The notes below the pieces were generated by a model, which was not told the origin of the DNA, did not search any database, and saw only the letters and a list, made by a program, of their open reading frames with translations. A stretch of 24,551 nucleotides of DNA. Origin: a virus. Where the stretch lies: IMG/VR virus record IMGVR_UViG_3300006916_000364, positions 1 to 24,551 of that record. One strand, given 5' to 3'. Position numbers and translations under genes: made by a program. Below are positions 53 to 23,620 of this stretch, piece by piece (position 1 is the stretch's first letter; each line of letters starts with the position of its first letter).

Positions 53-355
53 ATGCCCGTCATCCCCAAGGATGTAGCCATCGCTATCTTCCGTGAAGGC
101 ATCAAGCAAGGGGTGTATGACGCTTGCGATGAGATTGATAACTCCGACTCCGTCGAGATTGAAGAGAGTGGGTACACAGAAGGTTTTGAGGTGTCGTTCA
201 GCAAGTACGTTGACCTCACCGAACACATTAACACGGACTGGATGCGCGACAAGGTTGGTCAGTACAACGAGGAGTTTGTAGTAGATGCGCTCAAGGGATT
301 GTGTGCAAGCAAGGAGTTCGAGTGCCGCATCCACGGAATCGACAGCAATGACTAA
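53..355 (+). CDS. Hypothetical protein, possibly 5'-truncated by the window edge
   Basis: A 100-residue acidic protein that I do not recognise. The ATG at 53 is the first start codon seen in this frame, but the frame stays open back to position 2 with no stop, and those extra codons include a Cys-Gly-Cys stretch, so the true start may lie outside the window. No signal peptide, membrane segment or known motif is visible. The 3' end overlaps the next gene by 8 bases (ATGACTAA), the dense phage-type packing seen through the whole + strand block, which supports it being a translated early gene. Function unknown. Confidence 0.6.
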   Translation: MPVIPKDVAIAIFREGIKQGVYDACDEIDNSDSVEIEESGYTEGFEVSFSKYVDLTEHINTDWMRDKVGQYNEEFVVDALKGLCASKEFECRIHGIDSND

Positions 356-767
356 GAAAATAGACATAACGCCTGAGGTAATCATCCGCAGGTTACACTT
401 CACACAAGGCAAGACTCCCGAAGAGATTGCTCACATGTGGAGTTTCGAATTGAAATATGTACAACAAATTATTAACACAGAAAAATTTAAAACCATGAAG
501 AAGACAGACATGTCTATCAAGAAGCGCAACAAGCGCATCATGCAGCTCCGCAAAGAGGGCCTCACTCAGGCCGCTATCGCAGACAATGTTGGGTGCAGCA
601 CAAGCACAGTGCAACGTGTCCTCGGTGTACGACCCATTGCGAAGAAGCAGTCTCGCCCAACACCCAAGAAGGTTGTAAAAGCAACAAAGCCAGCAGCAAA
701 TACTGGTTTCGTCACCGAGTACAGTATCTTGTGGGGTGCATTTAAGTTCGTTAAGTCAAGCAAGTGA
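348..767 (+). CDS. Helix-turn-helix DNA-binding protein, probable regulator
   Basis: 139 residues, basic. Two helix-turn-helix-like segments are visible: one near residues 20-41 (TPEEIAHMWSF followed by KYVQQIIN) and a clearer one near 73-93 (LTQAAIADNVGCSTSTVQRV), which has the A-x-x-x-G-x-S-x-x-T-V-x-R pattern of resolvase/transposase-type HTH domains. The tail is rich in Lys, Pro and Ala. I chose the ATG at 348, which overlaps the stop of the previous gene, rather than an in-frame start at 285 that would sit deep inside it. It most likely binds phage or host DNA as a transcription regulator; the target is unknown. The stop overlaps the GTG start of the next gene (GTGA). Confidence 0.65.
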   Translation: MTKKIDITPEVIIRRLHFTQGKTPEEIAHMWSFELKYVQQIINTEKFKTMKKTDMSIKKRNKRIMQLRKEGLTQAAIADNVGCSTSTVQRVLGVRPIAKKQSRPTPKKVVKATKPAANTGFVTEYSILWGAFKFVKSSK

Positions 768-4342: not shown

Positions 4343-4642
4343 ATGAGCGATAAGCAATATGATTCAGTACTCGTAGGGTACGCCGAAGAACCTCGTTACA
4401 ACGACAACGGGGAGTTGATTTCTTGGAACGTCCGCTTCAAGGACAACGAACTCACCGAGATGGTAGAGAAGTACGCAACCTCTCGCAACGAGCAGGGGCA
4501 AGGCGGTAACCTCTACGTCACGCTGTTCATGTCCAAGAACGGCAAGGCATGCTGCCGTGTGTTCGATCCGAACAGTGCAGCTGCCAAGGCCAAGCGTGCA
4601 GAGAAAGCTGCCACGCAAGAGGCTGATGAAGTCCCGTTCTAA
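4343..4642 (+). CDS. Small SSB-like single-stranded DNA-binding protein
   Basis: 99 residues. The protein ends in EADEVPF, an acidic tip with terminal Pro-Phe as in bacterial SSB (DDDIPF), the peptide that docks partner proteins such as nucleases and helicases. The body is small and beta-rich (YDSVLVGYAEEPRYND..., SWNVRFKDNEL, NLYVTLFMSKNGKACCRVF), compatible with one OB fold. It follows the exonuclease and precedes the primase-helicase, the expected setting. Preceded by its own 70-base AT-rich gap, which suggests separate expression. The body does not obviously match classical SSB, so the call rests on the tip, size and context. Confidence 0.65.
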   Translation: MSDKQYDSVLVGYAEEPRYNDNGELISWNVRFKDNELTEMVEKYATSRNEQGQGGNLYVTLFMSKNGKACCRVFDPNSAAAKAKRAEKAATQEADEVPF

Positions 4643-8127: not shown

Positions 8128-8135
8128 TATCTTTG
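8128..8135 (+). promoter_or_regulatory. Perfect -7 element (TATCTTTG) of a Bacteroidota-type promoter
   Basis: TATCTTTG matches TAnnTTTG exactly and lies six bases after the stop of the preceding gene. No good -33 TTG/TTTG is seen 17-23 bases upstream. If used, transcription would start near 8139-8141 and run into the terminator at 8181-8216, giving an RNA of roughly 75 bases. Confidence 0.4.
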
Positions 8136-8138
8136 TGC

Positions 8139-8216
8139 CTGTTACACGGGCTAGTTGACTGTGGAACTTCGCAATCTGTGAGAGGGGTGAGCTATATCAG
8201 CTCCCCCTCTTTTTTT
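8139..8216 (+). ncRNA. Candidate short phage RNA between -7 element and terminator
   Basis: The 78 bases between the perfect -7 element and the end of the terminator T-tract have no reading frame worth calling. They could be a free-standing small RNA ending in the terminator hairpin, or merely the read-through end of the early operon. No tRNA features are present (no T-loop consensus, no acceptor pairing). Very tentative. Confidence 0.25.
8181..8216 (+). terminator. Strong intrinsic terminator at the end of the early block
   Basis: An inverted repeat AGAGGGGTGAGCT (8181-8193) and AGCTCCCCCTCT (8199-8210) forms a GC-rich stem of 12 pairs with one bulged T and a five-base loop (ATATC), followed by an uninterrupted T run to 8216. 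There is no A run on the upstream side, so it should act only on + strand transcription. It separates the replication genes from the secreted-protein cassette. Confidence 0.85.
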
Positions 8217-8221
8217 ATTCG

Positions 8222-8229
8222 TACCTTTG
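8222..8229 (+). promoter_or_regulatory. Perfect -7 element (TACCTTTG) in front of the metalloprotease
   Basis: TACCTTTG matches TAnnTTTG exactly and ends seven bases before the ATG at 8237. TCAG occurs 21 bases upstream (8197-8200), where the two - strand promoters have TTAG, but no TTTG box is present. The transcript would start around 8233-8235, practically leaderless. Coming right after a strong terminator, it would give the cassette its own control. Confidence 0.5.
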
Positions 8230-8236
8230 CTCTCGT

Positions 8237-10144
8237 ATGAGAACCATTATCACCACCCTGCTTTGCGCTATAACAACCTTGGGTGTGGCCCAAGAATGCG
8301 CCTTATTGTTGCCCGATAATGTAAAGATTATGGGCATGGAACGAACGCATGTTACCCTCGACAAGGTCGAAGCGGTAACACTACCAGTCGTGTTTCACGT
8401 AGTACACACTGGGGATGACGAACTCAATAACATTTCTGATGAGCAACTGCTTTCTCAGATCGATGTGCTCAACAGTAGTTTTTCAAACAGTAGTATACAG
8501 TTCTGCTTAGCTGTTCGTGACCCAGATGGTAACCCCACAAATGGCATAACTAGATATGATGCTAGCTGGAATGAGGAGTACGTAGCTGACGGCATAGCTC
8601 GCGACAACACACAGCCCGGATGGAGTCAGGTTGAGATGAAGCAGTCTGCTGGATGCTGGAATCCAGATGAGTACATAAACATATACTCTGTGTCTGAGAT
8701 CGACGGCAATGATGGTGGAGCAGGCATTCAAGGGTTCGCATACCTCGGCCCTACTGGAGACTGCAGAGACGGGATAGTGTGCCTGTACAATGCGACTGGT
8801 AATGTAGGAGAGCTAAAAAGCTACACCTCTGAGGGGCTCACAGGGGTCCACGAGATGGGACACCACCTCTCTCTGTGGCACACCTTCTCTAACACATCGT
8901 CTTGTACCTCAGAAACTAACTGCGAGACACAAGGTGATCAGGTATGTGACACTCCGCCCACGACTGTCAACAGCTATTGCTCATCGTCGTGCCCAGACGC
9001 TCTTGTAAATAACTTCATGGACTACACCGCAGAGTCCTGCAAGGATAGCTTCACTCAGGGGCAGGCAGAGAGGATGCACTCCTGCATACAAGACCAGCGC
9101 TACGGACTTGTAACAAGCTTAGCGTGCGCACCAGTGGTAGACTACGACGCAACGCCAGCCATAGCCTACTATCAGGAGACGTGGTGTACCCCAGCTCAAG
9201 ACATATGGATTGATGTCTTAAACCAAGGGACTGAGGTCATGCCTATACTTGAGGTTCAACTCTATTGCAATGGCAATCAATACACAACAACTCTGTTTGA
9301 TGTGCCTGTAGGTATCACTGAGGTTGTCTTCCCAGCCGTATATGTTGATGGTGCTCAGCAGTTTGAGGTGCAGACGATAAGCGAGTTCGACGAGTACGCT
9401 GATAACGACTACGCATGGTGGCCAATAGAAACCACTGACGGCAGTGTATTAGAGATATCCGTATCAACTGATATCTGGGCCAATGAGCTTGAGTGGTTGC
9501 TGTACGATCAGTATAATGAGGTTATCATGGGAGACGGTGACTGGGCTCCGGGAGTACAGACCTTTGAGTACGAGATGTGTGTGTTCAATGGATGCTACAC
9601 AGTAGAAGTGCTGGATGATGGGGGTGATGGCTTCTGCTCTATAGACTTTGATGGAGATGGCGTCTGCGACATAGGCGGACAGGGAATCGTCGGCACCATA
9701 GACAACGAGGTTGTATTCGAGACAGGCTTTGGCTTGCAGTTCGACCAGTGGGACAGCACGTTCTGCGTTGAGATAGACCCGTGCCCACTAGACTTCGATG
9801 ACGATGGCGTTGTAGGAAATAGCGACGTGCTCATCCTTGTTTCTGAGTTTGGGTGCGAAGAGGACTGCTTCACGGACCCGAACAATGATGGCATGGTAAA
9901 TGTAATGGATCTTATATATATGCTTTCGTTTATAGGTGAGTGCGACATAGATCAGAACCTCGGAATGGGAATGGTTAAAGACCTAACCATTGAAGCTGCT
10001 GATGCAGGAGGCAGTCTGTTTGGTGGTAACCCACACATATACGATATGTCTGGACGTAGAGTCAAGGGGCCTGTTGAGAACCTAGCATCAGGCGTGTATA
10101 TACTTAGATGGAAGGATACAACCAAAAAAGTATTTGTTCAATGA
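8237..10144 (+). CDS. Secreted M43-type zinc metalloprotease with dockerin-like EF-hands and T9SS type A sorting domain
   Basis: 635 residues. Residues 1-18 are a typical signal peptide without a lipobox. The catalytic site is H205-E206-x-x-H209-x5-H215 (HEMGHHLSLWH), with the Met-turn at M261 in NFMDYT; this combination and the Cys-rich surroundings match family M43 (cytophagalysin/pappalysin). After about residue 300 comes a beta-rich region, then acidic Ca-binding-like loops (DFDGDGVCD), a dockerin-like pair of EF-hands around 514-570 (DFDDDGVVGNSD and DPNNDGMVNVMD), and a C-terminal sorting domain (YDMSGRRV, SGVYILRW, KKVFVQ) of the T9SS type A kind. The host would export it via Sec and T9SS and either release it or hold it on the cell surface. 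All catalytic residues are intact. Between phage replication and virion genes it looks like acquired cargo. It overlaps the next gene by ATGA. Confidence 0.9.
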   Translation: MRTIITTLLCAITTLGVAQECALLLPDNVKIMGMERTHVTLDKVEAVTLPVVFHVVHTGDDELNNISDEQLLSQIDVLNSSFSNSSIQFCLAVRDPDGNPTNGITRYDASWNEEYVADGIARDNTQPGWSQVEMKQSAGCWNPDEYINIYSVSEIDGNDGGAGIQGFAYLGPTGDCRDGIVCLYNATGNVGELKSYTSEGLTGVHEMGHHLSLWHTFSNTSSCTSETNCETQGDQVCDTPPTTVNSYCSSSCPDALVNNFMDYTAESCKDSFTQGQAERMHSCIQDQRYGLVTSLACAPVVDYDATPAIAYYQETWCTPAQDIWIDVLNQGTEVMPILEVQLYCNGNQYTTTLFDVPVGITEVVFPAVYVDGAQQFEVQTISEFDEYADNDYAWWPIETTDGSVLEISVSTDIWANELEWLLYDQYNEVIMGDGDWAPGVQTFEYEMCVFNGCYTVEVLDDGGDGFCSIDFDGDGVCDIGGQGIVGTIDNEVVFETGFGLQFDQWDSTFCVEIDPCPLDFDDDGVVGNSDVLILVSEFGCEEDCFTDPNNDGMVNVMDLIYMLSFIGECDIDQNLGMGMVKDLTIEAADAGGSLFGGNPHIYDMSGRRVKGPVENLASGVYILRWKDTTKKVFVQ

Positions 10145-10662: not shown

Positions 10663-11169
10663 TGGAGCCTTAATGGGGCCTGCGATCCACCGCCTCCGCC
10701 AGTAGTTTACGGATGCACAGACATGTTTGCATACAACTACAACTCGGTTGCATCACAAGACGACGGGACGTGCATATATCAGGGCTGCCAAGATCCTGAA
10801 GCTCTCAACTATTGCGAGGAATGTGAAGTGGAAGGAGATTGCATATACCCTCCAGATGACGGTGGATCTGATACAGACTGTAACGACCCCGGGGTATATG
10901 CGCCCAATACATTTACCCCAAACAACGATGGCATCAACGACTACTGGAGGCCAATAACAACACAAGAGTGTTGGTGGAAGTGGGAGGTTAGGGTGTACAA
11001 CAGGTGGGGTACGCTCGTGTGGATAAGCTACGATCCAGACGATAAGTGGATAGGAGAGAGATTAAACTCCTTTGTTCCCGATGGGGTGTATACGTACGTA
11101 ATAAAAGGATCTACTTGGCAGAGCCAGAAGGTGGTGAACATGTACGGTCACGTAACGGTGTTCCGTTAA
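10663..11169 (+). pseudogene. C-terminal part of the split secreted protein with T9SS type B sorting domain
   Basis: In the same frame as the preceding piece, right after its TAA. It begins with a Pro-rich linker (DPPPPPVV), then the motif YGCTDMFAYNYNSVASQDDG with Cys pairs, a repeat type common in secreted proteins of marine Bacteroidota, and a degenerate second copy (GCQDPEALNY). From about 10905 it carries a gliding-motility-associated C-terminal domain (APNTFTPNNDGINDYW, VYNRWGTLVW, PDGVYTYVIKG), the T9SS type B signal. The first ATG is at 10723, in the middle of the repeat, so a separate protein from there (148 aa) would lack a signal peptide and could not reach T9SS. Its stop overlaps the stop of the convergent gene (TTAA). 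Confidence 0.7.
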
Positions 11170-11540
11170 TCTCGTGCCTCGTATATGCGGTCCTGCTGTA
11201 GGTCGTATACCTTGTCTTGTATCTCCCTGAAGGAAGCCTGAAGCCGGAAGCTTATGTCTGCGGTGTACTGCCAAGCAGGTTTCCCGCCGTCATATATAAC
11301 GACTACGGGTACGGCAGTGACTGATTCTTGCAAAGCCTTTGGTTGATCTTCAAGCCACCCGAACTTGTACTCACAACCCCTTAGGTCTTCTAGATCTCTT
11401 CTCGTGTTCTTTTCGTTCCACTCGGCATTGATCTGAATGACAGTCACCTCTGGTTTTGGGAGGTCCGTATTCACCTTAATGGCAGCCCCAGTACCGAGGG
11501 CCCCTGCAGCAAGAGCTATTATGGCTATGGTCTTGTTCAT
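11166..11540 (-). CDS. Membrane-anchored thioredoxin-fold protein lacking the CxxC site
   Basis: 124 residues. Residues 4-21 form a signal anchor or signal peptide. The rest fits a thioredoxin fold: a VTVIQINAEW strand, the active-site position occupied by W41-N-E-K-N45 where thioredoxins have WCxxC, and the cis-proline strand AVPVVVIYDGGKP (P78). Without the two cysteines it cannot act as a dithiol oxidoreductase; Cys56 is the only Cys left. Similar proteins are known from marine phages near lysis genes, but their role is not settled. Last gene of the - strand block; it overlaps its upstream neighbour by ATGA and its stop overlaps that of the convergent + strand gene. Confidence 0.65.
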   Translation of the reverse strand: MNKTIAIIALAAGALGTGAAIKVNTDLPKPEVTVIQINAEWNEKNTRRDLEDLRGCEYKFGWLEDQPKALQESVTAVPVVVIYDGGKPAWQYTADISFRLQASFREIQDKVYDLQQDRIYEARD

Positions 11541-11815
11541 TGGTTAGTGCTCAGTTCATAAAGTCTCTCCTCAATGATGTCAAGCTTCTTCCCATTCTCC
11601 TCAACCTTTTCCTGAGTTGAGATTATTGTTTCTCTAATAAGCTGGTCCTTAAGATCGTATTCTGTTCTAGAAACTTCAGGCTCAGGAAGTTTCTTTGCTA
11701 GCTCAATCTCGCTTTGCAGAGCAAACCACATACCACATACTGTCACGACGAATGATATGACCAAGGCGATAGTCTTTAAATCAAGAGTCAGTTCTGTTTT
11801 CTCGTCAAGCTTCAT
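11537..11815 (-). CDS. Single-pass membrane protein with coiled coil
   Basis: 92 residues. A single membrane helix at about residues 15-33 (TIALVISFVVTVCGMWFAL), followed by PEPEVSRTEYDLKDQLIRET and a predicted coiled coil to the end (EKVEENGKKLDIIEERLYEL). The size, a helix near the N-terminus and a long helical domain recall phage lysis accessory proteins (inner-membrane spanin or holin-associated), but no lysozyme gene is adjacent, so this is only suggestive. It has its own candidate promoter just upstream (11835-11867) and is coupled to the thioredoxin-fold gene by ATGA. Confidence 0.65.
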   Translation of the reverse strand: MKLDEKTELTLDLKTIALVISFVVTVCGMWFALQSEIELAKKLPEPEVSRTEYDLKDQLIRETIISTQEKVEENGKKLDIIEERLYELSTNQ

Positions 11816-11833: not shown

Positions 11834-11867
11834 GCAAATATAAGCAATAGATTTATTATGTAACTAA
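11834..11867 (-). promoter_or_regulatory. Candidate promoter TTAG-N21-TATATTTGC for the membrane/thioredoxin pair
   Basis: Read on the - strand, TTAG (11867-11864), 21 bases, then TATATTTG (11842-11835) followed by C. The -7 element matches TAnnTTTG exactly; the start would fall near 11831, about 15 bases before the ATG at 11815. A 6-base inverted repeat (TTGCTT 11826-11831, AAGCAA 11842-11847) straddles the -7 element and might be an operator. The same element spacing recurs at 22660-22693. Confidence 0.55.
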
Positions 11868-11878
11868 TTGACAGTGAG

Positions 11879-13216
11879 TTAGTATGCCTTCTTTACGCGC
11901 ATCTTTCCTCCACCCTTCATCTTGAGTACACGAAGAGAGCCACCGTTCTTGAATCCCTCTGCTGTTCTCATGATGTCAAAGTATGGGAACTGAATATAAG
12001 CCCCTTGTTTGGTTTGGTTTTGTAGCTTTACGGCTGGTATTCCGTATTCAGCAAGCTTACTGTTTATCCTAGGGACAACCCTACTAAGAGTTTCAGTGTC
12101 TACTGGAACTGGACGTCCTAGTCTCTTTGCGTCGGCAACGTCAATACCAAATGTTCCTGCAAACAACTCTGGGTTTTCTCCAAGAGAGTTCAGCCCTCCG
12201 TACTTAACCTCGTCTAGGATCGGTTCGGCCTTGCCTCTTTTAAAAAACCTAAACATGATTGGGTAGGCATCAGCGCTCATGCTATTGGCCAATCCATAAG
12301 AGTCTCCAATGAAGTCAACCCTGCCTCCAACAGGAACTTTTTCTAGTCCCGCCATCATAAGCTTACCTCTTGTAAGGGGGCTTGTCTTTGGGGCGACAAT
12401 ATTTACTACGTACTTGTTGCTGTTTGGCTTGGACTCCACGACATCCATGTACTCCATTGGGTTCTTTGAGCTCTCGTATCTAACAACGAGTCCATTAGCT
12501 GGATCAGTCTCGCCCATAAAGTCTCCAATATCTGGGACGTCTGGTTTAGCCTTAGGAATTTTTCCAGACCTCAAAATGTCAGCCATATCACGAAGCCTGT
12601 CAAGCTCTCCGGGATCCGTGTGCATGGCGTACTCGCCGTACATATCCTCCAAGTCAAAAGCCAGCTCATCTCTTCTCCACTGTGGCATACGAAGAAGTTC
12701 CGCGCTATCTGATGCAACCTGTTGTGCTGACTTAGAAGTATTGAGCTTATCGACAAGCTTATTCATAACCTGCATGTTTGCTGGAGATACGTTCCAGTCC
12801 ATCCAGTCTTTCAACATGTTGAGGTTTCCCGGAAGGAATGCCATGCCTGCAGCAAGAGATAGTTGCGGAAGGTTTTCAGCCTCTGACATAGCTGCAACGT
12901 CACCAACAGGAGACAGCGCCTCAACCACTGGGGCCATCATCCTCACCCCCTGACCAGCAGCTGGATCGAACTCTTGGTAGTCCTGACCAAAGAATGTTTG
13001 CATACCAGCCCTGCTCTGATCAAGCATAGCGTCAGCAGCAGACGTGTACACTGGGCGCTGCATAGAAACAGCAGTTGATGATGCCGCTGCTGGCTCAGTA
13101 GCCATAGGCATGGATGAAGGCATGCGTCTCTGAGCTTCTTTCTGAACCTCTTGTTGCTCCAGCATTCTAAGGAGGTCGGCGGTTCTACCACCTTCTTGGT
13201 ATCTTCTTACTCTCAT
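11879..13216 (-). CDS. Unknown virion-block protein, paralogue of the upstream gene
   Basis: 445 residues. It is clearly related to the next gene upstream: both start MR-x-R-x-x-x-x-GGRT-x-DLLRMLEQ, share PVYTS-x2-DAML-x-QSRAGMQTFFG with FDPA-x-GQG about residues 55-95, and share a C-terminal domain with GKLM/GRLM, VP-x-GG, S-x-D-x-YP and a GKAE segment, ending in a Lys-rich GGSLR tail. The middle is divergent. No known family is recognised; the C-terminal domain has a loose resemblance to acetyltransferase-like folds which I do not press. As part of the late block it may be a virion or lysis-stage protein. It overlaps its upstream neighbour by ATGA (13213-13216). Confidence 0.65.
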   Translation of the reverse strand: MRVRRYQEGGRTADLLRMLEQQEVQKEAQRRMPSSMPMATEPAAASSTAVSMQRPVYTSAADAMLDQSRAGMQTFFGQDYQEFDPAAGQGVRMMAPVVEALSPVGDVAAMSEAENLPQLSLAAGMAFLPGNLNMLKDWMDWNVSPANMQVMNKLVDKLNTSKSAQQVASDSAELLRMPQWRRDELAFDLEDMYGEYAMHTDPGELDRLRDMADILRSGKIPKAKPDVPDIGDFMGETDPANGLVVRYESSKNPMEYMDVVESKPNSNKYVVNIVAPKTSPLTRGKLMMAGLEKVPVGGRVDFIGDSYGLANSMSADAYPIMFRFFKRGKAEPILDEVKYGGLNSLGENPELFAGTFGIDVADAKRLGRPVPVDTETLSRVVPRINSKLAEYGIPAVKLQNQTKQGAYIQFPYFDIMRTAEGFKNGGSLRVLKMKGGGKMRVKKAY

Positions 13217-14565
13217 TTTACTTTTATGTATTTCTTTTTCTTTACGGGTCTAAGCGACCCACCCATGTAGTAAGAACCCGTAGGTATATTCTTTTTAACA
13301 ACAGGGTATGGGAGATGTAGCGGTGAATCATCATAAAAGTCTTCTACATCAACATCCATCAGTCTGCTTTCTGGAAGTCCAAGCTCCTTGAGCTTTGCGT
13401 CAATCTTCGGTTTGATTCTTTTCGATGCCGCCAGAATTTCTTCTGCTGGCTCATCCATTTGCGTGTGATTAAACGCCAACTGTATATCCACAGGATCAAC
13501 ACCAAACATCTTAGCCATCAAGTCAGGGTTGCTGCCCATGTCATTGATATCGCCGTATGAAATCTTGTATGGACCCGTCGTTTTATTGTTAAGAACTTCT
13601 GCCTTACCGGATTCAATGTACTTGAGCATATATGGGTATGAGTCTGTGCTCATGTTTGGGATATCTATGATACCCCCCTCTGGCACAGCCTTGATCATCT
13701 CCCCCATAAGCCTTCCCTGAGAAAACTTAGACGCATCCTGCGTCTCGCCAACAATGTTTATCGAGTATGAGCCATCCCCAGAAGGATTTTTTCTTAGGGC
13801 TGCTCCACCGTAACCACTATCAGTCCTGTACTCCAGCAAAACATTTGGGTCTCCTGACTGATGAATTTTAAAGAGACCTATTGACTCTGGTGCGTCGATC
13901 TTCACATCCAGCTTAGTCCCCTTAGATATGGCCCTAGCAGCACTGTACATGTGATCTGCAATCTCATCAGTAAGGAGCCCGTCTTCATACATCTCTTCAG
14001 TGGCAGCAGCAACATCAGAAGTGATGTTCATTCTTTCAGATTCAGAGAGACCTGAGTTTGCTCTGAAGAAAGTGTTATCAATCCCTTCAGTAACATCTCC
14101 CCCAGATTCTATAGAGCTAATAACGTCTAGGATCTTGTCGGAACGGTTTCCGAAATTGTTCCTGACGTACTTAAACATTCTCTGAAGAGTCTCTGTTGGG
14201 ATCGGCGCCCAAGCCGCTGCTGCAAGAGCAGCAGCCTCACCGTATCGACCCTCAGATGCTGACTCGGATATACCCTTGACGTCTCCAGCTCCAGTAAGCT
14301 CACCAATAGGGTATACTGGGGTGATTCCCTGACCATAAGCTGGGTCAAAAGGTTTTCTTTCTTCGCCAAAGAATGTCTGCATGCCAGCCCTGCTCTGTCC
14401 AAGCATGGCATCATCCTTTGATGTGTAAACAGGCGCATCTCTAGAAACTCTCAAGGACGATGGCTGCATGTACTGAGTCATTCCAGAGGCTGGGCCTTGG
14501 CTTTGCTCAAGCATACGTAGCAGGTCGCGAGTGCGGCCACCATCCTGTAGTTTCCTTGTTCTCAC
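13213..14565 (-). CDS. Unknown virion-block protein, paralogue of the downstream gene
   Basis: 450 residues, the second member of the tandem pair. The N-terminal basic segment with GGRTRDLLRMLEQ, the QSRAGMQTFFG block and the C-terminal domain (GRLMGEMIKAVPEGG, STDSYPYMLKYI, SGKAEV) are shared with its neighbour at roughly one third to one half identity by eye, while the middle (about residues 120-230) differs and is Ser/Glu-rich here. The end is extremely basic (PVKKKKYIKVK) after a GGSLR motif. Both ends are joined to neighbours by ATGA overlaps, so both copies are expressed together. Function unknown. Confidence 0.65.
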   Translation of the reverse strand: MRTRKLQDGGRTRDLLRMLEQSQGPASGMTQYMQPSSLRVSRDAPVYTSKDDAMLGQSRAGMQTFFGEERKPFDPAYGQGITPVYPIGELTGAGDVKGISESASEGRYGEAAALAAAAWAPIPTETLQRMFKYVRNNFGNRSDKILDVISSIESGGDVTEGIDNTFFRANSGLSESERMNITSDVAAATEEMYEDGLLTDEIADHMYSAARAISKGTKLDVKIDAPESIGLFKIHQSGDPNVLLEYRTDSGYGGAALRKNPSGDGSYSINIVGETQDASKFSQGRLMGEMIKAVPEGGIIDIPNMSTDSYPYMLKYIESGKAEVLNNKTTGPYKISYGDINDMGSNPDLMAKMFGVDPVDIQLAFNHTQMDEPAEEILAASKRIKPKIDAKLKELGLPESRLMDVDVEDFYDDSPLHLPYPVVKKNIPTGSYYMGGSLRPVKKKKYIKVK

Positions 14566-19897: not shown

Positions 19898-21577
19898 TTA
19901 ATAATCATCAAACAAACCGCCGCTCTTTACTGCCTCCTCGACCTGTCCAACAGCGTCGTCAACGGTGTTTTTAGCCTGCTCATTTGGCCCATAAACTATT
20001 CCGGACTGCAAACCATCAAGAGTAATGTTTGGGTCCTTATACACCCTTCTAATCGCTTGAAGGATAGATTGAACAGAGTCTCTATCTCTCCACTTATCGA
20101 GCACGATAGTTTTAACCTTGTCGTATTGTGAACCAGTCTTCTTTACTGAGAGGTCTAGCAGAACCACCTTGCCGTTAGACAAGAAGCCAATCTCTTTTGG
20201 TTGAATCTCAAACTGAACTGGTTCAAGGGCGCTATCGCCAAGAGCATATCTAGTCTCGTCAATTCTTCTCTTGAGCTGCAAGGCCTCTTCTGAGTTCTTG
20301 TCACTCATAGAGTCATAGCTCTCCTCCATAGATCTGAGCTGTCTGTGCTCTTCGCCAGCGCGGGGGTTGTCGATAACAATGGTTTCTTTCTTCTTGCCCA
20401 AAGAAGACAAGACATATGAATTACCATTTACCCCACTGTACATCTCGAACTGATCGATAGGCACAAGAACCCCATCTTCATCTGTCTCCATAAGCTCTCC
20501 CGTCCTCAAGTACTCAAGTCCGTCGAGAGTAAATGACTGCTTGCTGTCAAAGTCAGACTTAAATATATCTGCCTCTCTTTCAGAAACACTCTTCTTAGAC
20601 TCATCCTCCTCCACAATAAAGCGAGAAGATTCAGCCATCTGCTTTACAAGCTCTTTGTTTATGTCAGATATGTACTGAGACTGCATCTGATATGCAGGGT
20701 TGTTAATGTCACCCTGAATGTAAGCCGTAACAAGCCCTTCATTATCCCTCATGGCATCAGTAAAGAGGTTGCTTACAGCCCATGCTCTCGCAGCAGCAGA
20801 GTCTTCGTTCTCTACACCGCCAGACACTATGCCTTCAGCCACTCTATACGCTTCATTTTTATTCCAAGAGTCCTTGTTAAACGCCTTGGCTGCAGATCTA
20901 ACTGTACCCTCACCAATCTGAGTGGCACTCTTGCCATACCGAGCTTGAGTGGGTACAGTAAACGTAGTGGGGTTAGCCCACAATTCCCAGCTAGTGATGT
21001 CCTGCCAATCACCAGTCGGTTCCCCAGTCTCTGGGTCAACAGACTTAAACACAACCGTCCCGTCTGCCCCCATCTGAGTGGTAATACCACTACCTTCAAA
21101 TTGTTGCTGAGCCTGAATCATAGATTGAGGAGACGCGGCGGACTGTAGATATACCGGTAGCTGCTCGTTAAACTTAGCCGCTTGCGATGGGTCGGTGGAA
21201 ACGCCGTTGTAAGTCTCTCGGCTCTGCTGAACCTCATCGCTATTGTGTGAGGCGTAGGTGTTGAACCAGTTCGCGATGTCCTGTACGGCTCTACGTGCAG
21301 CGACAGGATCGTCAATAGCGAAGTTGTTTATGTCCTGCAACTTCTGATTGTAGTAGTCACTAAAGTGTTGACGCAGTGGGGGGATAAGCTTTGATACGTC
21401 ATAACCCTCAGCCTCAGATAGCATCTTATCCGCAGCCTTTTGGCGTGCGTTCATCTGATCTACTATGGCTTTTTTCTGCGCAGCTTGAGCTGCCTGCTGA
21501 GCCTTGAGGCTGTTGACAAGTCCAGACATGTCTGGCCCCTCCACAGACTTAAGCGGTGCTGTATACGCTACTGGCAT
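19898..21577 (-). CDS. Internal virion-type structural protein (559 aa)
   Basis: 559 residues, acidic, no signal peptide or membrane helix. The N-terminal 60 residues are a Gln/Ala/Lys-rich helix with coiled-coil character (LKAQQAAQAAQKKAIVDQMN), then DVSKLIPPLRQHFSDYYNQKL and a mixed alpha/beta body with a beta-rich middle (PTTFTVPTQARYG). No enzyme motif is visible. Its position between a gp14-like and a giant gp16-like protein suggests the middle component (gp15-like) of an ejection assembly; this is inference from order and size. The start overlaps the upstream stop by one base (TAATG), and six bases separate it from the giant gene. Confidence 0.6.
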   Translation of the reverse strand: MPVAYTAPLKSVEGPDMSGLVNSLKAQQAAQAAQKKAIVDQMNARQKAADKMLSEAEGYDVSKLIPPLRQHFSDYYNQKLQDINNFAIDDPVAARRAVQDIANWFNTYASHNSDEVQQSRETYNGVSTDPSQAAKFNEQLPVYLQSAASPQSMIQAQQQFEGSGITTQMGADGTVVFKSVDPETGEPTGDWQDITSWELWANPTTFTVPTQARYGKSATQIGEGTVRSAAKAFNKDSWNKNEAYRVAEGIVSGGVENEDSAAARAWAVSNLFTDAMRDNEGLVTAYIQGDINNPAYQMQSQYISDINKELVKQMAESSRFIVEEDESKKSVSEREADIFKSDFDSKQSFTLDGLEYLRTGELMETDEDGVLVPIDQFEMYSGVNGNSYVLSSLGKKKETIVIDNPRAGEEHRQLRSMEESYDSMSDKNSEEALQLKRRIDETRYALGDSALEPVQFEIQPKEIGFLSNGKVVLLDLSVKKTGSQYDKVKTIVLDKWRDRDSVQSILQAIRRVYKDPNITLDGLQSGIVYGPNEQAKNTVDDAVGQVEEAVKSGGLFDDY

Positions 21578-22656
21578 TACTCTATTTCAATCTCAATTTC
21601 TTTCTGTCCAACCTGAAAGTTAGGTGAATTCAAGAAATTAAGCAGTTCTGCAACTCTTTTTACTTCTTCTGGAGCGTCTGGATTTGACTCCAAGAATTTG
21701 TTCAGCACATCAACCGCCTCCATCGTGCTGTTTGTTTGATCTGGGTTAAGCACAACCTCCTCTCCTGTAAGCTCTGCTTCTTTCTCTCCAGTCTCCTCAT
21801 CAATCAGAGCCTTCTTGTTGGTGTCATGATTAAACTCACCACCCGTCATGTATAGCTGGTTCTTGAGTGAGCCCCCATGTTCCCTTAAGCGCTTTTTAAA
21901 GGCTTCTTTCCCCAACACATCCATTGTGGCAGTCAGGTCAGATGATGGAATAAATGAACCTGAGTCTTGGCCTGCAGTGCTTAGACCGAGCTGTTGTGCG
22001 GTTTTTGCTGTGTCACCACTCGGAGCCCCGTACCCCATCATGCCGTAATATGTGCCAACACCCTCTCCTATAGCTCCAATGCCTTGCTGCAACGCCTCTG
22101 TTCCGGCTGCATAGCCTAAGCTAGCTGCCGTCTGGCCTTCGCGTCGCAGCTGCTCCTGAAGTCCTCTTTCACTTCCAATGTTTAAGTCACTAATCTGTTG
22201 CTCTCTAAGTATGTTGGCTTTGCTGTACCCCTCTGCCAAATCAGCCAGTCGCTGCTGTGCTGCCGTCGACTGCTGAGCCGCAGCAAACTCTGACTGAGCA
22301 AGCTGACGAGAAAGAGACGGTGCTATATTAGCTATAGCAGCAGAAGATCTTGTGGGGTCTTGAACGCCCGAAGCTATAGCCTGTTGAGACAAAGCAAGGT
22401 TCTGTTCTCTGAGGTTCTTTATAGCCTCAGCACCTTGAGTCTTCTGCGCTTCAAGGAGATCTCTTGATTCCTGAGTGATGCCAAATTGAGGACCTGTCTG
22501 GTACTGAAGATCATCGAGACGCTTCATTGCATCCTGTGCAATCTGCTCGCCTGCTTCTCTTTGCTTCTTGGCCCTTACCCCCTTAGCGATGGCCTGACCG
22601 CCCTTTACGGCGACTTGTGTTCCCGCTGCTATTAATGCTGCTGTTACTAATGGCAT
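21577..22656 (-). CDS. Internal virion-type protein (359 aa, gp14-like position)
   Basis: 359 residues. The N-terminus is a hydrophobic Ala/Gly-rich helix (AALIAAGTQVAVKGGQAIAKG) typical of the small internal virion proteins of podoviruses, followed by a long Gln/Ala-rich helical region (to about residue 170), a Gly-rich linker and a C-terminal part with HGGSLKNQLYMTGGEFNHDTN and ALIDEETGEKEAELTGEE, a segment I associate with virion proteins of Bacteroidota phages. Probably a membrane-active ejection protein; no search was done. Its ATG lies only four bases after a perfect -7 promoter element, so it may have a leaderless transcript of its own. Confidence 0.6.
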   Translation of the reverse strand: MPLVTAALIAAGTQVAVKGGQAIAKGVRAKKQREAGEQIAQDAMKRLDDLQYQTGPQFGITQESRDLLEAQKTQGAEAIKNLREQNLALSQQAIASGVQDPTRSSAAIANIAPSLSRQLAQSEFAAAQQSTAAQQRLADLAEGYSKANILREQQISDLNIGSERGLQEQLRREGQTAASLGYAAGTEALQQGIGAIGEGVGTYYGMMGYGAPSGDTAKTAQQLGLSTAGQDSGSFIPSSDLTATMDVLGKEAFKKRLREHGGSLKNQLYMTGGEFNHDTNKKALIDEETGEKEAELTGEEVVLNPDQTNSTMEAVDVLNKFLESNPDAPEEVKRVAELLNFLNSPNFQVGQKEIEIEIE

Positions 22657-22659
22657 AAT

Positions 22660-22693
22660 GCAAATATAGTTATTATTACTTAGAGTGGTCTAA
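22660..22693 (-). promoter_or_regulatory. Candidate promoter TTAG-N21-TATATTTGC for the internal virion genes
   Basis: On the - strand, TTAG (22693-22690), 21 bases, TATATTTG (22668-22661) then C. It sits partly in the end of the upstream gene and partly in the 19-base gap. Transcription would start about 22657, next to the ATG at 22656. Layout and -7 sequence are identical to the candidate at 11834-11867. Confidence 0.55.
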
Positions 22694-23620
22694 GTCAGTT
22701 GGTTCATAGTTTACGTTGAGAGCGTAGAGCTCAAAGTTCTGACTCCCAAGATTTATAACGGCTTCGGCATACTGACCCCTCAAGAAATCACCATTGAGCT
22801 GAGGGTCGCTAACCGCGAACACATTAAGCACAGATCCAGAGGCGGCAAGGCTACCCAGTCTGCTGGCAAATGCAGCAAGCGCCTGTGGAGTAGTCTTTAT
22901 GAGTATCCCGTCTTTGTAAAAGGCTGATTGATTGCCAGTAATGTCTGACTCTTGAGGTATACTTATACCAGCTGGGATGCCAGAGTAATCCTGCCCCTCA
23001 ACAATAGTTTGCAGCGACCCGTTACCATTAAACCCAAACAGTTCTGAATCGTTCTCTACAGAGAATACCAAAGATGTCTTACCAGAAAAAGCTGGTGCAG
23101 ACCCATACACCCCATTCAAAGTGTACAGATTGTCTTGTTGGCTTACAACGCCGAGAGAGCCAGCAACTACAGGTATACTACCCACATACTTTAGGTTTAC
23201 GTTGGCCTTTACTCGTGGGTCTCTTGGCATATGGCCGTAAAGTATACCGCCTTTATTTGAAAGGGTGCCTATAGAGATGGTGCTCGGTGGTGATCCCGGC
23301 TGCAAGAACTCACTAGTTCTGATGGTATTCAAAGACCCAGTAAGGTTTTCAGTCCCCTCTACAGAGAAAGTCTTGTATATCTTGTTTTGAGATATATTGT
23401 CGTTAAAGGACACAGCTATAGAGGAGTTATGCTGCTCACCATAGAAGTTGTTGTTTGCAACATTTTTATGATGCTCCCAAGCGATGGTGTCTACTGCCGG
23501 ATCAATAGTCTTGTCGCAAGAGATAAACCTCTTGTCTATGCTTGAATAGTTGGACGAGACGTAGTCATACTTTGACGTCCATATATTCTTCGTGTTGTTA
23601 AATCCTATGGTGTTCTTCAT
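22676..23620 (-). CDS. Probable virion (tail/neck) structural protein
   Basis: 314 residues. The opening part (FNNTKNIWTSKYDYVSSNYS, SIDKRFISCD, then WEHHKNVANNNFYG and QHNSSIAVSFNDN, with IYKTFSVEG) is Asn/Ser/aromatic-rich and beta-type, a pattern I have met in tail or stabilisation proteins of Bacteroidota phages, though I cannot name a family. The rest is beta-rich with Gly/Ser turns and no membrane or signal segments. It is coupled by ATGA to the partial gene upstream and precedes the ejection proteins, which fits a tail or neck component. Confidence 0.6.
   Translation of the reverse strand: MKNTIGFNNTKNIWTSKYDYVSSNYSSIDKRFISCDKTIDPAVDTIAWEHHKNVANNNFYGEQHNSSIAVSFNDNISQNKIYKTFSVEGTENLTGSLNTIRTSEFLQPGSPPSTISIGTLSNKGGILYGHMPRDPRVKANVNLKYVGSIPVVAGSLGVVSQQDNLYTLNGVYGSAPAFSGKTSLVFSVENDSELFGFNGNGSLQTIVEGQDYSGIPAGISIPQESDITGNQSAFYKDGILIKTTPQALAAFASRLGSLAASGSVLNVFAVSDPQLNGDFLRGQYAEAVINLGSQNFELYALNVNYEPTDLDHSK

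Follow-up and report, generated by a model that had tools for sequence, protein, structure and literature searches.

Late promoters of phage T4 carry TATAAATA at position -10 and no -35 element, and gp55/gp33 of T4 as well as the SSB of phage N4 redirect the host polymerase late, in hosts other than that of the phage described here. The late genes of N4 need the viral SSB (PMC5312081). In Bacteroidota, the housekeeping (sigma-ABfr) promoter combines a -33 element (TTTG) with a -7 element (TAnnTTTG). For host promoters of F. johnsoniae, one study (PMC6847099) describes a -33 element that is weak and hardly evident, and places the start of transcription 4 or 5 nt beyond the -7 element; leaders of ≤10 nt amount to 13%, by difference from the stated 87%. 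In F. psychrophilum, leaderless mRNAs make up 5.5% (PMC9723704), and in B. thetaiotaomicron 5' UTRs shorter than 10 nt make up 3.7% (PMC7366714). A survey of Pribnow-like boxes reports leaderless genes for a single one of 37 Bacteroidetes/Chlorobi genomes (BMC Genomics 2011, PMC3160421). Little has been described of early and late promoter classes in Bacteroidota phages, and searches of open-licence papers listed none on a late promoter consensus for such a phage.

The window (the whole stretch of DNA analysed, an IMG/VR virus record of 24,551 bases) is a phage of Bacteroidota, judged by its proteins. Primase/helicase and exonuclease genes are located on the + strand, a holin and a virion protein on the - strand, and a match to a crAss-type muzzle domain is also present among the proteins. 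Relatives in IMG/VR number in the hundreds (361 via the holin, 85 via the primase). Statistics were taken on 27 of 36 records (set G001-G036), up to base 59,600 in longer records and on the first 39,800 bases only of G035. The holin was matched in 27/27 and the primase in 25/27 records, on opposite strands in every record having both; the late strand of G012 and G017, without a primase match, was assigned from the holin only. Since the records are kin, the counts are not independent events; sites near stretch ends were omitted, as were similar contexts wherever counts are deduplicated. Row L009:668-752 in alignment A1 covered the wrong part of its sequence, and query frames e500 and e1310 of one protein search were wrong; all were ignored. 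A host scan of genome contigs yielded a single Actinomycetota locus, which was not used.

The preliminary description reported two late-strand promoters of identical layout, and TTAG-N21-TATATTTGC is indeed found at 11834-11867 (-) and 22660-22693 (-), both on the late strand and with no third copy in the window (Table 1). Both sites read TATATTTG and conform to the -7 element TAnnTTTG (TAHHTTTG) of a sigma-ABfr promoter. At 22660, 4 nt (CATT) separate the -7 element from the ATG at 22656 and, as starts in F. johnsoniae lie 4-5 nt past the -7 box, transcription is expected to begin on the A of this ATG. At 11834, the -7 element is followed after 19 nt by the ATG of gene 11537-11815, and by analogy to the F. 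johnsoniae data (PMC6847099) the start is expected at about 11830 (4-nt gap) or 11829. Gene 21577-22656, for which homologues were found but no PHROGs match, heads a run of abutting genes that reaches down to 11879. Gene 11537-11815, likewise without a PHROGs match, is followed by the overlapping gene 11166-11540. The late genes 11879-13216 and 13213-14565 (-) are adjacent paralogues (31% identity, E 3e-44) with a common N-terminus MR-R--Q-GGRT-DLLRMLEQ. The muzzle domain match of gene 22676-23620 (-) to PF25729 (E 3.4e-7, 31 bits, cut-off 27) concerns a phage group that lies apart from the known crAss-like records used for comparison.

Table 1 Features of the two putative late promoters and of the metalloprotease site
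Feature	Position	Strand	Basis or remark
Metalloprotease TCAG	8197..8200	+	fold; loop and 3' arm of hairpin ~8180-8211
Early-strand putative -7 element TACCTTTG	8222..8229	+	7 nt before ATG (8237), M43 peptidase gene
92-aa late gene behind leadered promoter	11537..11815	-	ORF
Putative late promoter -7 element TATATTTG, leadered class	11835..11842	-	sequence
TTAG copy 1	11864..11867	-	without evidence of function
359-aa late gene behind predicted leaderless promoter	21577..22656	-	ORF
Putative late promoter -7 element TATATTTG, predicted leaderless class	22661..22668	-	sequence; orthologous junctions
Late gene, match to crAss muzzle C-terminal domain	22676..23620	-	Pfam PF25729
TTAG copy 2	22690..22693	-	reading frame; orthologous junctions

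Across the 27 records, TATATTTG occurs at 197 late-strand and 14 early-strand sites, with 3-12 late sites per record, and 169 of the 197 remain when similar contexts are merged. Sixty permuted octamers, used as a control, average 31.1 late and 32.3 early sites with maxima of 66 and 69. By crude ORF calls, the octamer lies upstream of 130 (61 + 69) of 1074 late ORFs versus 1 of 674 early ORFs; as the late ORFs preceded by it are a minority, most late genes would be operon-internal or use something else. The 159 late sites with an ATG 3-30 nt downstream lead to proteins of 43 clusters. Behind TATATTTG we find the portal gene (phrog_6547) at 25 sites in 24/27 records, a structural gene (phrog_14543) at 23 sites in 23/27 records and, as the third-largest cluster named, a 133-aa protein without assigned function in 18 records; the motif is placed before structural but not before early genes. 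In the column profile of the late sites, positions -5 and -4 are T, the octamer is directly followed by C or T and, besides the G/C of terminators, no column near -33 carries weight. The variable positions nn are TA in 67/102 and 70/137 late promoters, and TA, TC, TT, AA or AC in 94 of the 102 late sites with a 4-5-nt spacing.

The pattern TANNTTTGNNNNATG is present in 36/36 records, at 132 late and 6 early sites, compared to 16 for the reversed pattern over both strands; the nine held-out records of the 36 contribute 26 late and 1 early sites of this N4 pattern, and 5 of the reversed one. The flanks of 61 held-out holin loci (of 80, as 19 were dropped whose contigs are already among the 27 records) contain TATATTTG at 26 late versus 4 early sites, at a much lower density; this signal is weaker because the region has few promoters and one permuted octamer, the largest, reached 27. 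Seven of the 10 new distinct late sites in these flanks precede an ATG, four of them at 4 nt, and none of the 3 new early sites does so. No comparable strand excess of TATATTTG was detected in six named Bacteroidota phages, Panino, phi18:3, phi38:1, MW202828 (not quite whole), elemoE (complete to 59,600) and crAss001 (to 99,200), nor in stretches of two Bacteroidota replicons. In this comparison set, at most 13 copies were present on one strand (elemoE), and an ATG followed at 4-5 nt twice overall. In two whole replicons plus a plasmid (2.35 Mb), TATATTTGNNNNATG has 4 occurrences. With about 4 expected, the counts of 13 and 5 for elemoE and of 10 and 11 for crAss001 point to a use of the octamer in further phages that do not follow the late-strand rule. 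Judged from these sequences, the phage-specific shared part is TATATTTGY itself, together with the strand on which it lies and its spacing to the start codon.

This distance has two preferred values. An ATG follows late TATATTTG after 4-5 nt at 77 of the 197 sites, and the others form a second, broad hill, mostly at 13-29 nt. For TAnnTTTG as such, an open-frame ATG on the late strand is found at 4 nt for 90 and at 5 nt for 30 sites. The corresponding numbers are 4 and 2 for the early strand, and 1 and 1 when the octamer is reversed (late strand). An earlier pooled set contained 26 TAnnTTTG sites at 4 nt, where seven control octamers reached 1-4. The start codon at 4-5 nt is mostly ATG (106), rarely GTG (6), TTG (1) or CTG (1). 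A terminator-like hairpin is located directly upstream of 21/102 sites of the 4-5-nt class versus 13/376 comparison sites, so that transcription would have to restart within a few bases before the ATG. In the 4-5-nt class, which comprises about half of the late promoters, the message probably begins at the start codon and is leaderless. The succession of hairpin, TATATTTG and ATG within about 50 bases was seen on the late strand of L186, L189, L191, L213 and others, and at L205:15576-15665 (-) a tRNA-Ile (tat) ends a few bases upstream of a late promoter of the predicted leaderless class.

A -33 element TTG/TTTG at N19-21 is absent from both the 11834 and the 22660 site. In the first pooled set, TTG-N20 accompanies 23/99 TAnnTTTG sites before ORFs versus 15/596 inside ORFs (P 8e-12). 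Separated by strand, TTG at N19-21 is found at 11/53 early promoter-like versus 12/266 late promoter-like sites (P 3e-4), and late sites without an ATG (34/376) are above the late promoter-like ones. Early promoter-like and early non-promoter sites differ with P 0.07 (N19-21) and 0.02 (N20), and a separate early-strand set from primase loci has TTG-N20 in 18/52 versus 13/116 (P 5e-4); TATATTTG is present in 4 of these 52 early promoters. The -33 element of a sigma-ABfr promoter is thus found in early-strand promoters and not at the late sites, and by this comparison the predicted early promoters have the known TTG box and the predicted late promoters have none. As the host -33 element is also weak, its absence is not unique to the late class. 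Sigma-70 hexamers were considered and rejected (12 found versus 21.8 expected). Sequence statistics establish the strand restriction of the late class, its lack of a -33 box, its two spacings and its association with structural genes.

Taken as a whole, these observations are likely to be explained by a sigma-ABfr-like late promoter class without a -33 box, used in two placements and with an incidental TTAG. Both sites would be host-type promoters of a late class common to this Bacteroidota phage group, which can be defined as TATATTTG plus C or T with an AT-rich part just upstream (roughly ATTTnnTATATTTGY) and would possess neither TTG nor TTAG as a -33 box. Placed 4-5 nt before the ATG, the element would direct the start to the start codon and yield a leaderless mRNA (22660); placed mostly 13-29 nt before the ATG, it would yield a short leader (11834). 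The early genes on the opposite strand would be served by TTG-N20-TAnnTTTG with other bases at nn. We infer the start 4-5 nt downstream, the leaderless mRNAs and the late expression; the best-supported mechanism would be recognition of host-type promoters through their -7 element.

In the preliminary description, TTAG at N21 was instead proposed as a possible phage-specific -33 element, recognised by a phage-altered host polymerase or an activator. Two exact copies within one window speak for this assumption, and two copies were obtained in 0/100 shuffles of the window, a test that is too favourable, since TTAG had been chosen on inspection of the sites. In the window, a looser search for TTAG-N19-23-TAnnTTTG returned the same two sites only (shuffle mean 0.14), and among 140 distinct late TATATTTG promoters TTAG is present at N20-22 in 3 and at N21 in 2; in the first pooled set TTAG-N21 accompanies 3/99 distinct TAnnTTTG sites before ORFs. 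An identical in-register tetramer between -35 and -15 is shared by 1052 of 9730 pairs (11%) of related late promoters, and by 403 pairs (4%) inside the N19-24 zone, so that the TTAG match is unremarkable when two promoters are compared by eye; the -33 columns are unremarkable in both spacing classes. The TTAG of the 11834 site is found outside the window only in L099, which is near-identical to it. At 22660, the 3' end of gene 22676-23620 (TTA GAC CAC TCT AAG stop, C-terminus ...LDHSK-stop) overlaps the upstream part of the promoter, and TTAG represents TTA (Leu) plus the G of Asp. Including that of the window, 25 distinct 3' ends of orthologues were available together with the DNA beyond them, and 23 of these junctions have kept TAnnTTTG and an ATG 4-7 nt beyond. 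TTAG at N21 or N22 is present in 13 of the 23, all with TTA for Leu, and absent from 10, whose Leu codon (CTT, CTC or CTA) does not provide it; these 10, with another Leu codon or residue, have nevertheless kept the -7 element and the ATG. That TTA is otherwise rare (11/263 Leu codons in six late genes of the window) favours a function of TTAG, but the preference for TTA at the junction may result from the A+T need of the promoter or from common descent. An inverted repeat CTTAGAccacTCTAAG in the region 22684-22693 was discarded, as the codons account for it and L012 and L071 do not preserve it. We consider a -33 function of TTAG extremely improbable; by the comparison with the relatives, the TTAG common to both sites is a coincidence. 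The assignment of both sites to one class of late-strand promoters holds, and at -33 this class differs from the usual Bacteroidota promoter, although TTAG is not the departure.

It is very unlikely, too, that TATATTTG-N4-ATG represents a translation-initiation context and not a promoter at the start codon. Such a context would fit the replacement of the Shine-Dalgarno sequence by sequence context in Bacteroidota, as described in PMC6847099. However, the octamer is equally frequent 13-29 nt upstream of an ATG, is identical to the known -7 element and often stands directly after a terminator hairpin, where only a promoter would help. Less remote, yet still doubtful, is a phage factor that replaces the contact of sigma region 4 with the -33 element and steers the host polymerase to TATATTTG late. 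The combination of no -33 box with a fixed nn in late and of TTG with other nn in early promoters is consistent with such a factor, as are the scarcity of TATATTTG on the early strand relative to permuted octamers (about 14-15 versus a mean of 32) and a small early protein with a [DE]-[VLM]-PF-like tip, as in SSBs, in 22/27 records. Against this, Sigma70_r2 is matched in 0/27 records and Sigma70_r4 above cut-off in 0/27, the HTH_23 protein of the window (348-767) is matched in only 2/27, the SSB idea is supported neither by a fold search nor by a PDB sequence search, and the host polymerase alone may suffice. Three candidates were rejected: a phage sigma factor (not found in the 27 records, with three sub-threshold region-4 matches), the HTH protein 348-767 as activator (not conserved) and, as late activator, the SSB-like protein 4343-4642 (+), which has only its tail motif in its favour. 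The latter is an early protein of 99 aa with an invariant, SSB-tail-like C-terminal PF after acidic residues; its model (pLDDT 74.9) gave no PDB match at E 0.001 and its sequence no PDB match. Also less likely than not is a dedicated late system, in which a phage factor would free the host polymerase from the -33 contact and direct it to TATATTTGY, with about one in two late promoters set to give leaderless mRNAs. If this is true, late translation would be under a separate initiation route, in a host having few leaderless messages.

The preliminary description further noted a matching TCAG at the metalloprotease gene. TCAG-N21-TACCTTTGC is literally present at 8197-8230 (+), but its TCAG lies in a terminator hairpin and is not a promoter box; relatives have TAAG or CAAG instead. 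The position of the TACCTTTG element, with an ATG within 7 nt, is kept in most relatives. A conserved small noncoding element occupies 8128-8215 (+), with a -7 box TATCTTTG followed by GTTACACGGG...CTGTGGAACTTCGCAATCT, a strong terminator hairpin and a T run; it has a fold z-score of -4.0 and about 12 distinct true copies among relatives, and looks like a phage RNA of 70-80 nt. Rfam gave no match above gathering for this element and none in the search as a whole, apart from one chance-level match. The M43 metallopeptidase (8237-10144, +) and the product of 10723-11169 (+), which bears a CHU_C type IX secretion signal, would be cargo that a Bacteroidota host exports. An early protein (2204-2659, +), present in 17/27 records, has a weak match to DnaA domain IV (PF08299, E 0.002, below cut-off) and is a possible origin-binding protein.

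With a late class defined by sequence, the late genes of metagenomic phages and the starts of their transcripts would become predictable, and the dependence of sigma-ABfr on any -33 box could be tested. The class also offers a set of predicted leaderless genes from a phylum with few leaderless mRNAs. The putative late promoters resemble sigma-ABfr promoters in the -7 octamer and in A/T at nn, and F. johnsoniae promoters in the start predicted 4-5 nt past the -7 element; the early-strand promoters share TTG at N20 with sigma-ABfr promoters. Unlike sigma-ABfr promoters, the late class is fixed on TATATTTGY, lacks the -33 element, is confined to the late strand and in about half of its members is placed 4-5 nt before the ATG. 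The late promoters of T4 differ in sequence and host, and no sigma-like protein was detected in the 27 records (Pfam Sigma70_r2, r4), yet in both systems a single element beside the start site, without an upstream box, would drive the late genes. The 4-5-nt class also resembles leaderless genes with a -10-like box in having a box at a fixed short distance from the ATG, although the survey of such genes (PMC3160421) sought Pribnow-like boxes and not TAnnTTTG.
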